Shown here: positions 9,892-43,510 of the stretch, piece after piece
How the letters are laid out: each line of letters begins with the position of its first letter
Numbering within the stretch: the stretch's first letter is position 1
NCBI GenBank assembly: GCA_947166625.1
Contig: CAMVEX010000023.1
Span: forward strand, 1-43,510
Source: an uncultured Clostridia bacterium
GTDB lineage: Bacteria; Bacillota; Clostridia; Oscillospirales; Acutalibacteraceae
Direction of reading: 5' to 3'
DNA: 43,510 nucleotides
The notes under the pieces: model-generated
Told to the model about the DNA's origin: nothing
Seen by the model: only the letters and a program-made list of their open reading frames with translations
Databases searched by the model: none
Position numbers and translations under genes: made by a program

Positions 9892-11547
<1,656 letters not shown>

Positions 11548-11838
11548 TTATTTATTCTCTACTATTGCAAGGATGTCGCTCTGACGGACGATATTGTATT
11601 CATCTTTGCCGAGCTTGACTTCCGTGCCCGAATATTTGCCTGCTATGACCTTATCGCCGACCTTGACATACATCTTGACCTCTTTGCCGTCCACAAGACC
11701 GCCGGGGCCTACCGCGACGACTTCGGCGATCTGCGGCTTCTCCTGAGCGGAAGCGGCGAGAATGATACCGCCGGCGCTTTTTTCTTCGATCTCGACAGAT
11801 TTGAGCACTACTCTGTCTGCAAGGGGTTTAAGTTTCAT
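11548..11838 (-). CDS. Co-chaperonin GroES (Hsp10)
   Basis: 96-residue co-chaperonin, the heptameric lid for GroEL. Typical features are the N-terminal KPLADRVVLKSVEIEEKSAGGIIL, containing the mobile loop that docks on GroEL, and the C-terminal EYNIVRQSDILAIVE. The start is supported by CGGAGGT seven bases upstream. It is the first gene of the heat-shock operon, under CIRCE/HrcA. Confidence 0.97.
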   Translation of the reverse strand: MKLKPLADRVVLKSVEIEEKSAGGIILAASAQEKPQIAEVVAVGPGGLVDGKEVKMYVKVGDKVIAGKYSGTEVKLGKDEYNIVRQSDILAIVENK

Positions 11839-11872
11839 ATTTATTACCTCCGAAATTATGAATTACAATCTT

Positions 11873-11899
11873 TTGGCACTCTTTATCGTCGAGTGCTAA
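11873..11899 (-). promoter_or_regulatory. CIRCE operator (HrcA binding site)
   Basis: Inverted repeat TTGGCACTC, nine bases, GAGTGCTAA on the plus strand, against the consensus TTAGCACTC-N9-GAGTGCTAA. One position differs (G for A). It lies between the promoter and groES. HrcA bound here represses the operon and is inactivated by heat through GroEL availability. Confidence 0.95.
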
Positions 11900-11904
11900 T
11901 TCGT

Positions 11905-11932
11905 ATTTTAGCACTAATATCCGAAAAATCAA
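11905..11932 (-). promoter_or_regulatory. Sigma-A promoter of groESL
   Basis: TTGATT (11932-11927), a 16-base spacer and TAAAAT (11910-11905), immediately upstream of CIRCE. A further CIRCE-like half site, TTAGCACT on the plus strand at 11908-11915, overlaps the -10 element. Confidence 0.65.
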
Positions 11933-11978
11933 GTGTTTTTTCAAAAGTTTACAATTATGTCATAATTCGCGGCGTTGA

Positions 11979-12007
11979 TTGACTTTGTATTCGCTCAATG
12001 GTAAAAT
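11979..12007 (+). promoter_or_regulatory. Promoter of the O-antigen-ligase-like gene
   Basis: TTGACT (11979-11984), a 17-base spacer and TAAAAT (12002-12007). The ten bases ATGGTAAAAT are repeated 14 bases downstream (around 12013-12022). Confidence 0.6.
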
Positions 12008-12047
12008 TCAGAATGGTAAAATCATAATTTTATGAGGCAATTCACGC

Positions 12048-13430
12048 ATGGATAAATTTAGATCTGCTGCCGAAAAACTTGAAAAATTCAATTCCTCGGG
12101 TTGCTACAGTATATTGCTGTTTGCGGCAGCCTGCGTTTTTATGATAATCGACCGCGAGGTGATCGGAGTATATGCCCTCGCCGCAATAGTTTCTTTCACG
12201 CTCATTGTCAGCGATGATTTGCTGCCCGGTCTTGAGGGTCTGCTCGTGATATGCTGCTTTGCGATACGCTGCAAAAATTCCGGACCCGAATTTTTTGCCC
12301 TCTGGCCGCTCGGGATCCCCACAGCCGTTTTCTTTATATCAAGATTCATCGTATATAGGCCCAAACTTCGCCGTCTCTCTTTCCTGCCGGGAATGGCAGC
12401 GGTTTCAGCCGCAATTCTGCTTGGCGGAGCGGGAATAATCTATTGGAAATCTTATTTTTCGCCCACCTCGCTGTTTTATATGTTTTCGCTCGGCGCTGGA
12501 ATGATGCTTCTTGTTTCATATATCGCGACATACTTAAATCCCGAAAGAGGATATGATTTTGCGCACAGATTCAGCATGATACACATCACCCCCATATTCA
12601 CCTTATGCTTTGCTCTGTTTCAGGAATACGCCTCGCGTTTTGATGAATTCTCTCAAAATTTCAGTGTGATCCCCTTCCAATGGAGAAATAACGCCGCGAC
12701 GATACTCATGATGTGTATGCCCTTTGCGTTTTATCTCGCCGCCGGCAAATATAGCAGGACTTTTATCGGTCTGCTCGATTACATCGCGATCTTATTCACC
12801 GGCTCAAGGGGCGGGCTGATATTCGGCACGGCTGAAATAATCATCTGCCTGACGCTGATGCTCATCATCGACAGAAAGCACAGAAAATACAATCTCATCA
12901 CAATAGGGGTCTGCGCTCTGGCGGTGATCCTCGCGAGCAGGATCCTTGTGGAAATAATCAGCTACACGATCCAGAGAATGCTTGACCCGGACGAGAATTC
13001 CATAAGGATACGGCTTATGGAACGCGGCATCGAGGATTTCAAAGCCAATCCGCTCTTTGGCAGAGGGATCGGATATATGGGCAACAGAGATATTCATCAC
13101 AGCGCAAAGCACACTCTGTGCTGGTATCACTGCTCCGTGATCCAGGTGATCGCATCTATGGGCATCACAGGCGTCGCCGCCTATACCTTCCTCAACATTC
13201 AGAGGATACGCTGCTTTATCAAAAACATATCATTCTTTTCGCTGATACTCTTTACGGCTTTTATCGGGCTCGAAATGATGTCGCTCGTAAACCCGGGCGT
13301 ATTCGCCCCGTTCCCCTATCTGATGTTTGCAACGATATATTTTGCCGCCATGGAATGCTGCGGAAAAAGCGGAAAATCTCTTAAAGAAATGATGAAAGGC
13401 GCCGAAAATGAAAGTATTGATAATCGGTAA
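12048..13430 (+). CDS. O-antigen ligase/polymerase-like integral membrane protein (Wzy_C family)
   Basis: Polytopic inner-membrane protein of 460 residues with roughly ten or more hydrophobic segments, for example YSILLFAAACVFMII and AAILLGGAGIIYW. Two features match the O-antigen ligase family: FTGSRGGLIFG near residue 255, where Arg is conserved, and the later loop NPLFGRGIGYMGNR, followed by His-rich HHSAKHTLCWYHC near 355. Such enzymes join or polymerise undecaprenyl-linked glycans at the outer face of the membrane. No glycosyltransferases lie in the same operon; the AT-rich pair at 16321-18553 is the nearest. The gene overlaps the next CDS by 23 bases, so the two are translationally coupled. 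Confidence 0.75.
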   Translation: MDKFRSAAEKLEKFNSSGCYSILLFAAACVFMIIDREVIGVYALAAIVSFTLIVSDDLLPGLEGLLVICCFAIRCKNSGPEFFALWPLGIPTAVFFISRFIVYRPKLRRLSFLPGMAAVSAAILLGGAGIIYWKSYFSPTSLFYMFSLGAGMMLLVSYIATYLNPERGYDFAHRFSMIHITPIFTLCFALFQEYASRFDEFSQNFSVIPFQWRNNAATILMMCMPFAFYLAAGKYSRTFIGLLDYIAILFTGSRGGLIFGTAEIIICLTLMLIIDRKHRKYNLITIGVCALAVILASRILVEIISYTIQRMLDPDENSIRIRLMERGIEDFKANPLFGRGIGYMGNRDIHHSAKHTLCWYHCSVIQVIASMGITGVAAYTFLNIQRIRCFIKNISFFSLILFTAFIGLEMMSLVNPGVFAPFPYLMFATIYFAAMECCGKSGKSLKEMMKGAENESIDNR

Positions 13431-41953: not shown

Positions 41954-42098
41954 ATATATCGGGTATATTTAATGTATAATTTCCGATCGGATCTATGGTA
42001 TAATTATGTAAATTTGAAAAAAATTCCGTTAGATTTGCAATTTTAGCCGACTGCCTTATGAAGGGACATACCGAATATAGCAGAAAGGGGGCGAGGTT

Positions 42099-42398
42099 AT
42101 CAAAAACACAAAGGACTGCAATACTATTCTCAAAGAATGTTATGCACAGTACAGAATAAAACTGTTTTATTACTGCCTCGCCCGGCTTGACGGCGCAAGG
42201 GAAGACGCAGATGACTGCGTTCAGGATTCCTTCCTGGTGCTGCAGCAAAAACTGAATTCAAGAGAAGTAATAGAAAACCCGAGGGCGTTCCTCTACCGCA
42301 CGGCGGATAATTTCGTCAAGCGGCGCAAGCCGAATATAACTGCATCGCAATTAAACTCGCCGCAGGCGAATATAACTGAAAAAATCCTTGTCTTTTGA
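42099..42398 (+). pseudogene. Decayed ECF (sigma-70 family) sigma factor, region 2 fragment
   Basis: An open frame of 99 codons without a standard start codon. After a good ribosome site (AAAGGGGG), the place of the expected ATG is ATC at 42099. The product reads KNTKDCNTILKECYAQYR, then the typical ECF region 2 segment DGAREDADDCVQDSFLVLQQ and ENPRAFLYRTADNFVKRRK, and then stops after a few unrelated residues, with region 4 missing. Both the start codon and the -35 binding domain are absent, so it is probably non-functional. The last bases are the arm of the terminator at 42380. Start loss by a single G-to-C change is an inference. Confidence 0.75.
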
Positions 42399-42409
42399 CA
42401 AGGATTTTT
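42380..42409. terminator. Terminator at the end of the rRNA/tRNA operon and the sigma fragment
   Basis: AAAAATCCTTGTC and GACAAGGATTTTT form 13 perfect pairs around TTTT. On the minus strand it directly follows the displaced tRNA 3' half, so it was probably the original terminator of the 23S-tRNA-Val transcript. It works in both directions. Confidence 0.9.
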
Positions 42410-42411
42410 CG

Positions 42412-42458
42412 TGGTGGTCGTTACAGGACTTGAACCTGTGACCTCCCGCACGTCAAGC
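42412..42458 (-). repeat. tRNA-Val 3'-half fragment (distal att site)
   Basis: 47 bases identical to nucleotides 30-76 of the tRNA-Val at 43198-43273, including the anticodon loop, T arm and encoded CCA. The match ends abruptly at 42458. It cannot form a tRNA by itself. Confidence 0.93.
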
Positions 42459-42507
42459 TGTTATCAAGTATCTAACAACCTATATTTTTCAACGTTTTCT
42501 AGTATTA

Positions 42508-42534
42508 TGTCTGCATTTAATGTCTGCATTTTAA
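42508..42534 (+). repeat. Tandem TGTCTGCAT pair, left
   Basis: TGTCTGCATTTAA at 42508 and TGTCTGCATTTTAA at 42521, a 13-base period. The same pair with the same 13-base spacing and orientation recurs at 43084-43110. These are candidate integrase arm-binding sites. Confidence 0.75.
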
Positions 42535-42588
42535 GCAAATTTTTTGTTAATTATCAATAATAGTCACCTATTTAGATGATTGATTCCT

Positions 42589-43053
42589 TTAATGAAATCT
42601 TGAAAAATCTTTAGCAAGGTACTTATCATATTTTTCTTTACGATATTCTTGCTTTTTGCCTGTCTTAGGATTCTTTCTATTTCCATTAAACCAAATACTG
42701 CGTTTACCTATGTTTTTGCCAGTCTTATTAGTAACGCATTCAGACAGAAACTCTTCTGAAGACATAATCCACATCGATTTGAGTCGTTCTGAATAAAACA
42801 CAAAATAGAAATTGGGAGTTAGTTCGTGTTCAATACAAGAAAACAAAGCCGCATCACCATCATTAACTACAGCTGACCTTGCCTTAATCTGAATCTCTAT
42901 AAAAGTACCATCAGCCTTCTTTATCACACAATCTACTCCGTGGTCATCAACAAGCGGGGTATAACAATCGAGATTTTCCATAAGCATCTTGCCAATAAGA
43001 TAGTATTCCATTCTTTTGCCAAAGCCAGCTGTATGTCTAAAAGATATGCTCAT
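42589..43053 (-). CDS. DUF4365-like PD-(D/E)XK fold protein, element cargo
   Basis: 154 residues, no signal peptide. The N-terminal helix RHTAGFGKRMEYYLIGKMLM contains the Glu commonly found at the start of this fold. DDHGVDCVIKKADGTFIEIQIKAR near residue 40 fits the catalytic strand pair, with Asp in GVD and the Q-x-K (QIK) variant of the (D/E)xK motif seen in DUF4365 and Mrr-like proteins. The C-terminal half is basic (NRKNPKTGKKQEYRKEK). It could be a nuclease or a DNA-binding relic, perhaps for defence against other elements. The upstream GAGAGGA is 12 bases from the ATG, a weak spacing. It is the only gene of the tRNA-bracketed element and is AT-rich. Confidence 0.75.
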   Translation of the reverse strand: MSISFRHTAGFGKRMEYYLIGKMLMENLDCYTPLVDDHGVDCVIKKADGTFIEIQIKARSAVVNDGDAALFSCIEHELTPNFYFVFYSERLKSMWIMSSEEFLSECVTNKTGKNIGKRSIWFNGNRKNPKTGKKQEYRKEKYDKYLAKDFSRFH

Positions 43054-43083
43054 AATATAAATCTATCCTCTCTCATCAAAATT

Positions 43084-43110
43084 TGTCTGCATAATTTGTC
43101 TGCATTTTAA
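43084..43110 (+). repeat. Tandem TGTCTGCAT pair, right
   Basis: TGTCTGCAT at 43084 and at 43097, with the second continuing TTTAA. It has the same period and orientation as the pair at 42508. It also lies 31 bases upstream of the cargo gene's start, so it could be an operator instead. Confidence 0.75.
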
Positions 43111-43169
43111 TCATTTTTGATGCGTTTTATGCTATTTTTCACTACCAAGAAAATGCCGATAAAAGTAAA

Positions 43170-43194
43170 GAAATCCCTTATTTCAAGGGATTTC
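43170..43194 (-). terminator. Element-borne terminator after tRNA-Val
   Basis: GAAATCCCTT and AAGGGATTTC form ten pairs around a five-base loop. On the minus strand CTTTACTTTT follows. It lies three bases past the tRNA CCA end, inside the element, so insertion replaced the original terminator with this one. Confidence 0.75.
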
Positions 43195-43197
43195 CAA

Positions 43198-43273
43198 TGG
43201 TGGTCGTTACAGGACTTGAACCTGTGACCTCCCGCACGTCAAGCGGATGCGCTACCAGCTGCGCTAAACGACC
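43198..43273 (-). tRNA. tRNA-Val (anticodon GAC)
   Basis: 76 bases on the minus strand fold into a full cloverleaf. The acceptor is GGTCGTT/AACGACC, the D arm GCGC/GCGC, the anticodon stem TCCGC/GCGGG with loop TTGACGT (anticodon GAC), the T arm ACAGG/CCTGT with loop TTCAAGT, and the 3' CCA is encoded. It lies 99 bases downstream of the 23S gene in the same direction. Its 3' 47 bases are repeated at 42412-42458. Confidence 0.95.
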
Positions 43274-43372: not shown

Positions 43373-43510
43373 TTGGTCAAGCCCTCGACCTATTAGTATT
43401 GCCAAGCTGAACATATCACTATGCTTACACATGCAACCTATCAACCTCATAGTCCATGAGGGGTCTTACTGGCTTACGCCATGGGATATCTTATCTTGAA
43501 GGCGGCTTCA
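43373..43510 (-). rRNA. 23S ribosomal RNA, 3' end (partial)
   Basis: The minus strand carries the conserved 3' terminus of 23S rRNA, including CTAATAGGTCGAGGGCTTGA next to the mature end near 43373. The gene runs off the right edge of the window. It is transcribed leftward into tRNA-Val. Confidence 0.95.

Follow-up and report, generated by a model that had tools for sequence, protein, structure and literature searches.

According to the parts of PMC5704250 that deal with them, cis-mobilizable elements (CIMEs) are elements that have lost their integration and transfer genes and have retained their attachment (att) sites. In the sections of PMC3146451 on Dehalococcoides, 15 ssrA islands without an integration module were suggested to be CIMEs. 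The known phage satellites, as covered in the portions of PMC10803314 drawn on here, require for their excision integrases that they encode themselves. Here we describe a 786-bp segment at a tRNA-Val gene of an uncultured Clostridia bacterium, located in a 43,510-bp stretch of DNA (the window) that corresponds to contig C23 of a 2.49-Mb assembly in 49 contigs. The segment carries one nuclease-like gene and, whatever its history, is very probably bounded by att sites and without an integrase of its own.

The segment resembles a CIME in that it appears to be flanked by attL and attR, to judge from duplicated tRNA cores, arm-like repeat pairs and an intact tRNA gene at one end. It has no integration or transfer genes, and its movement would need a foreign integrase. 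It differs from the described CIMEs in being smaller than 1 kb, in having a single gene, in that its arms match those of a phage integrase clade and in that no neighboring element was recognized. With phage-inducible chromosomal islands (PICI) and phage-inducible chromosomal minimalist islands (PICMI) it shares site-specific integration, small size and possible defense cargo, whereas satellites of that type, as portrayed in the same portions of PMC10803314, have their own integrase and the window element has no integrase, replication or packaging gene. The original prediction had called the segment a satellite, and that label is too specific for it. The combination of apparently complete att sites with a missing integrase makes it a CIME-like, integrase-dependent mini-element, and probably a new small variant of the integrase-dependent att-bounded elements. 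We found no report of a single-gene, sub-kilobase case of this kind in the literature searched, which is not proof of absence. The reading that we favor, tentatively and at a little under even chances, is that the segment arrived as a small non-autonomous 786-bp integrative unit whose integrase was supplied in trans.

The duplicated tRNA-Val core and the element interior

The only tRNA gene that ARAGORN detects in the window is an intact tRNA-Val(gac) on the reverse strand (43198-43273), which is the apparent integration target. Its last 47 bases are duplicated exactly, in direct orientation and at an offset of 786 bp. The attL copy (43198-43244, reverse strand) runs from the anticodon stem-loop of the intact tRNA to its 3' end, and the attR copy (42412-42458, reverse strand) is an orphan tRNA-Val 3' half. 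The two match at all 47 positions (100% identity), and the match breaks off abruptly at the anticodon stem-loop, where the duplicated core starts. The anticodon stem-loop is a usual att boundary and crossover position of tyrosine integrases that target tRNA genes. ARAGORN and exact 47-mer matching thereby confirm the tRNA-Val 3' halves that had been predicted at both ends, in direct orientation and with an intact tRNA at one end only.

The 739-bp interior of the element (42459-43197) has a GC content of 0.322, compared with 0.469 for the window. Four copies of TGTCTGCAT are present in the entire window, all of them inside the element (at 42508, 42521, 43084 and 43097) and with a period of 13. 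Dinucleotide shuffles yield a mean of 0.18 copies, and four or more copies were obtained in 0 of 100 shuffles, which substantiates the predicted paired repeats with a 13-base period near both ends. On the reverse strand the repeats form two arm-type pairs, namely ATGCAGACA-AATT-ATGCAGACA on the attL side (43084-43105) and ATGCAGACA-TTAA-ATGCAGACA on the attR side (42508-42529), 59 bp past the end of the nuclease gene. The motif of both pairs also occurs beside phage integrases. Elsewhere in the organism's own genome the paired arm pattern does not occur with fewer than 3 mismatches, and with 3 mismatches there are four further matches. Both att sites thus look complete at the level of sequence, with a tRNA-Val core and arm-type sites on each side.

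In agreement with the prediction of one coding sequence and no integrase, the element contains a single open reading frame (ORF) of at least 60 aa, which encodes the nuclease-like protein, and neither a recombinase nor a transfer gene. A tblastn comparison of the interior with 55 integrase queries gave 520 weak rows and no integrase remnant above chance; the best row (E 0.017) lies within the nuclease gene and is plainly due to chance.

Directly past the 3' end of the tRNA, the element carries a terminator-like hairpin followed by a T-run (43160-43194, reverse strand), which was read from the sequence and has no terminator-scan score. A second terminator-like hairpin (42380-42409, reverse strand) lies on the chromosomal side of attR and would stand directly past the tRNA in an empty site. 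Given these two hairpins, the tRNA has a hairpin behind it before as well as after insertion. The attR core and 22 nt of the element together make up a tRNA-like stretch (42415-42480, reverse strand) that scores 29.4 bits with Rfam against a cut-off of 29. All 7 of 7 acceptor pairs can form in this stretch, a result that was equaled by a fraction of 0.0005 of 20,000 shuffles and that was spotted after the fact. The stretch may represent the vestige of a tRNA 5' part within the attachment site of the element itself (attP), which would account for both the marginal Rfam score and the full acceptor pairing.

Candidate helper integrases and the search for related copies

We scanned IMG/VR for pairs of ATGCAGACA and analyzed all 92 stretches that were obtained. 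In L118, L161, L187 and L194, TGCAGACA forms two clusters, one where a tyrosine-integrase gene has its 3' end and the other approximately 190-210 bp further on, and an A precedes most of the copies. The inner motif gap across the core is 198, 187, 211 and 187 bp in the L118, L194, L161 and L187 set and 198 bp in another contig, L214; in a circle formed from the window element it would be 197 bp. The phage motif copies are oriented as they are in the window element, and the nuclease gene occupies the position relative to arms and core that int occupies in the phages.

A search with a three-integrase alignment, A1, returned 35 viral loci, 24 of which have too little sequence 3' of int to be tested; a related-locus search with a single integrase alone had returned one locus. 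Among the 11 testable relatives, which have at least 300 bp 3' of int, L213, L214, L215, L222 and L224 carry at least four motif copies in two clusters. Since L213, L215, L222 and L224 share sequence with L194, L187, L161 and L118, it is L214 that represents one further contig. L216, L217, L221, L223 and L246 have one or two motif copies at the end of int, where the available sequence stops. Other repeat words (TGTAGGCAAA, TGTAGACAA and GGTGGCAAA) were seen by eye in the wider integrase group. The integrase of phage L207, which lies at a tRNA-Val core, was considered as a carrier of these arms and was set aside since its repeats look different by eye. Given that there are phage integrases that share this arm motif and attP geometry, supply of an integrase in trans is credible, as had been proposed from the window alone, and the presence of the motif on both sides of the attP region in this integrase clade supports the proposal that the ends are integrase-type att sites with arm repeats.

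The two-cluster layout is present in 4 of the 92 stretches for the real motif and in 0 of 24 and 0 of 106 stretches for two control 9-mers, which likewise favors such a helper. Several points weigh against the arrival of a small unit with the help of an integrase of this clade. The criterion behind the two-cluster counts (120-260 bp) was fixed after the real cases had been seen, so that the controls alone test it. The phage integrases were found by the motif search itself. The profile used for locus screening has the integrases of the viral loci among its 55 input sequences and therefore matches them easily; the two-cluster count is independent of the profile. In 2 of the 106 second-control stretches and in a fifth real stretch (L202), the two-cluster layout is absent and the motif still comes within 400 bp of an integrase, which indicates that mere nearness is not specific. 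Six of the 11 testable viral relatives lack the motif 3' of int. The arm period is 13 bp in the window element, compared with 10, 11 or 17 bp in the phages; a helper would therefore be a relative, and none of these phages is the exact one. The exact 4-nt-spaced arm pair pattern was found in 0 viral contigs.

The search of related genomes points in the same direction. No second copy of the element was found in its own genome, which has four tyrosine-integrase family matches, all of them without an exact TGCAGACAA in the surrounding 800 bp. Matches to A1 at E <=1e-30 are present in 89 of 394 genomes of the order; at the best 30 of the order's integrase loci, 25 of which have at least 300 bp of sequence there, TGCAGACA was found within 500 bp 3' of int in none. 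An integrase with this arm motif was thus found in phage contigs, and neither among the genome's own four integrases nor among these 30. Our arm searches covered 300 family, 394 order and 391 class genomes, each set including the source genome; without overlaps these amount to about 1,030 genomes. The paired arms have matches in 1 of 299 other genomes of the family (L094, with the 4-nt spacing only), in 4 of 393 others of the order (L208, L209, L210 and L211) and in 0 of 390 others of the class. The match at L094 lies inside a 639-aa ORF and was taken as chance, those at L209, L210 and L211 lie inside ORFs of at least 80 aa, that at L208 lies outside, and no integrase was found at any of the five loci. 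Nor was any other integrase-type copy of the element found among the approximately 1,030 genomes.

Among 45 genomes of the genus, the source genome included, the nuclease is confined to the source genome, apart from a match of 29% identity in G044, a distribution that counts in favor of the small-unit reading. It has a strong match in 1 of 98 other relatives (G088, of another family, 66%) and weak matches in two more. No tRNA gene is present within about 3 kb of sequence at these three nuclease loci, and in 0 of the 98 relatives does the nuclease adjoin a tRNA gene, a further point against that reading. The original prediction had envisaged a new class should the element recur; given that no recurrence was seen in the source genome or among the relatives sampled, the data do not demonstrate a new class, and the small unit stands as a single case to date.

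The nuclease family and other sequences at tRNA-Val

The nuclease gene (42589-43053, reverse strand) encodes a protein of 154 aa, the best fold match of which is the homing endonuclease I-Ssp6803I (2ost), at 18% identity; other fold matches are restriction enzymes and the SPARDA nuclease DREN. Residues E16, D41, Q55 and K57 are invariant across 34 aligned sequences, and the protein has the core fold and the catalytic residues by which membership in the PD-(D/E)XK superfamily is recognized. It scores 15.1 bits against Pfam DUF4365 (PF14280), under the gathering cut-off of 24.3, and 26 of the 34 relatives match DUF4365 at E <=0.1 (best E 0.0013). The nuclease reading stands despite the sub-cut-off score because the fold and the invariant residues support it. 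Of the predicted DUF4365/PD-(D/E)XK cargo, the PD-(D/E)XK assignment is thus upheld and the DUF4365 assignment is not. In contrast to I-Ssp6803I, the protein has no intron at its locus, the window containing no group I or other intron family at the Rfam gathering threshold, and its relatives are not found at tRNA genes. It differs from the SPARDA DREN/DUF4365 nucleases, as described in the relevant part of PMC12205087, in standing alone, its 154 aa including neither an APAZ nor an Argonaute part, and in falling below the Pfam cut-off. PADLOC, run on 4 proteins, gave weak matches only (best E 0.0011). Chance was judged to explain the NCBIfam matches of the family, such as those of 18 of 34 members to a fibrillarin-like model (best E 0.00045), and the one match of a profile search against PDB sequences (E 0.097).

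The nuclease family extends from Clostridia to Treponema, Grimontia and Binatia, with identities of 54-84% over the best segments. Neighboring genes were surveyed at 26 of 39 loci, made up of 17 picked for large near neighbors and 10 added against that bias (L021 is in both). Few neighbors are common to members of the family. The nuclease had no match in the phage collection, one match in plasmids (Acidisoma sp., 61%) and one locus in viral contigs (L055), whose stretch length and match are the same as those of genome locus L034. The nuclease is a horizontally spread solo gene found in many contexts, at times adjoining restriction-modification genes. At L028 a relative lies between HsdR and HsdM of a type I restriction system, and L030 has a similar arrangement. 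A relative at L018 is directly followed by a large serine recombinase of 718 aa (10478-12631), the frame of which runs on into a SpoVT C-terminal domain. In a Winogradskyella bin (L046, 9480-10820), long direct repeats 1,110 bp apart surround a relative, possibly as part of a cassette-like array. As a possible stand-alone mobile defense or restriction-like nuclease, the family makes a good candidate. The cargo of the window element probably cleaves incoming or specific DNA, and a role in defense is plausible.

With up to 3 mismatches allowed, 17 of the 45 genus genomes, the source genome included, contain the tRNA-Val 47-mer. In G012 (L107) and G026 (L095), an orphan tRNA-Val 3' half follows a shared but different element end of about 120 bp with TTCGTAAA. 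These remnants of another element type indicate that tRNA-Val has been used by other elements too. Units of about 195-250 bp, which end in the tail GGTTCAAGTCCTGTAACGACCACCA and contain an inverted piece of the tRNA core, lie behind tRNA-Val at L057, L059, L062, L070 and L099. Units with this tail are repeated in G030 and G020, and lie about 1.6 kb downstream in G018; a 34-mer pattern that allowed up to 3 mismatches detected them in 4 of the 45 genus genomes. At L056, L058, L060, L067 and L068 a shared hairpin lies downstream of tRNA-Val, in some cases with CTTCGTAAA repeats, and marks a candidate element-end family. A Gut-1 RNA match (87.3 bits) is located near tRNA-Val in G030 (L059, 1117-1193).

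In the window itself, the 3' end of a 23S rRNA gene (43373-43510, reverse strand) lies upstream of tRNA-Val at the contig end. On the other side of the element, the N-terminal part of a gene that we take to resemble an ECF-type sigma factor (42024-42328, forward strand) ends abruptly at 42328, and a longer copy that is 93% identical is present in G026 (L075). The approximately 90 bp between 42328 and the attR tRNA copy are similar to several sites in the source genome and in G007.

Origin of the segment

The arrival of a small unit is only slightly more likely than deletion in place from a larger element. In the deletion account, what was inserted at tRNA-Val was a larger, integrase-encoding phage or integrative element that later lost everything but its ends and the nuclease gene, leaving a decayed CIME, and we regard this as a serious possibility although it falls short of even chances. 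Loss of this kind is the usual origin of CIMEs according to the part of PMC5704250 cited above, and the occupation of the phage int position by the nuclease gene would fit it. Decay at this site is also plausible given that the orphan core and element end adjoin ordinary genes in G012 and G026. The second-best of the tblastn rows (E 0.024), a match of 23 residues between the arm region and the end of the L214 integrase, is rightly placed to be the last trace of int, yet it is at noise level and, as far as the sequence goes, may be explained by the arms alone. The nuclease gene, moreover, is intact and of foreign composition, no other gene remnant was recognized, and a larger form was not found in any relative searched. 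A large element with a partial integrase, which the original prediction had named as the finding that would overturn it, was thus not seen in relatives, and the interior holds no integrase remnant above chance.

The duplicated core could in principle also have arisen when tRNA-Val was duplicated in tandem and one copy later decayed in its 5' half, the nuclease gene being merely caught between the two. The marginal tRNA score of the attR copy with its 22 nt and the 7-bp acceptor stem that is possible there would suit this origin, but we consider it improbable, as it fits poorly with an exact 47-bp identity that stops sharply at the anticodon stem-loop, with integrase-like repeat pairs at attP-like spacing on each side and with the foreign composition of the interior. 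In 14 congeners, moreover, the core stands behind a tRNA 5' half with other sequence after it (by eye) and the genomes have no nuclease match, although three of these 14 tRNA-Val copies are within 100 bp of a contig end. Even less probable is homing, in which the nuclease would cut near the anticodon region of the tRNA and repair would copy the gene in. I-Ssp6803I is itself a homing enzyme, but relatives of the window nuclease are not at tRNA genes, L033 alone among the 39 loci having one within 4 kb (many loci are shorter than that). The window has no group I intron family at the Rfam threshold, and a 47-bp duplication with arm-like sites is the trace of an integrase and unlike that of homing.

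If the segment did arrive as a small unit, a phage or other element elsewhere would make an integrase of matching specificity, and this integrase would have recombined the circular attP of the element with tRNA-Val. The cut tRNA would have been restored because the element supplies both a 3' half and a terminator of its own. The same integrase, together with an excision factor, could still excise the element. A bolder extension, which we consider unlikely, is that there are sub-kilobase "integrase cassettes", each consisting of a full attP and one accessory nuclease, that spread by means of the integrases of passing phages much as integron cassettes do.

The segment belongs to a known general kind of hitch-hiking element, is unusually small for it and has been seen once so far. 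Since candidate helper integrases whose arm motifs match can now be named, the idea that it is mobilized is open to a direct test. If it moved as 786 bp, the lower size limit of an integrase-mobilized element would be approximately two att sites and one gene, and such movement would provide one route by which an accessory nuclease can spread entirely on its own.
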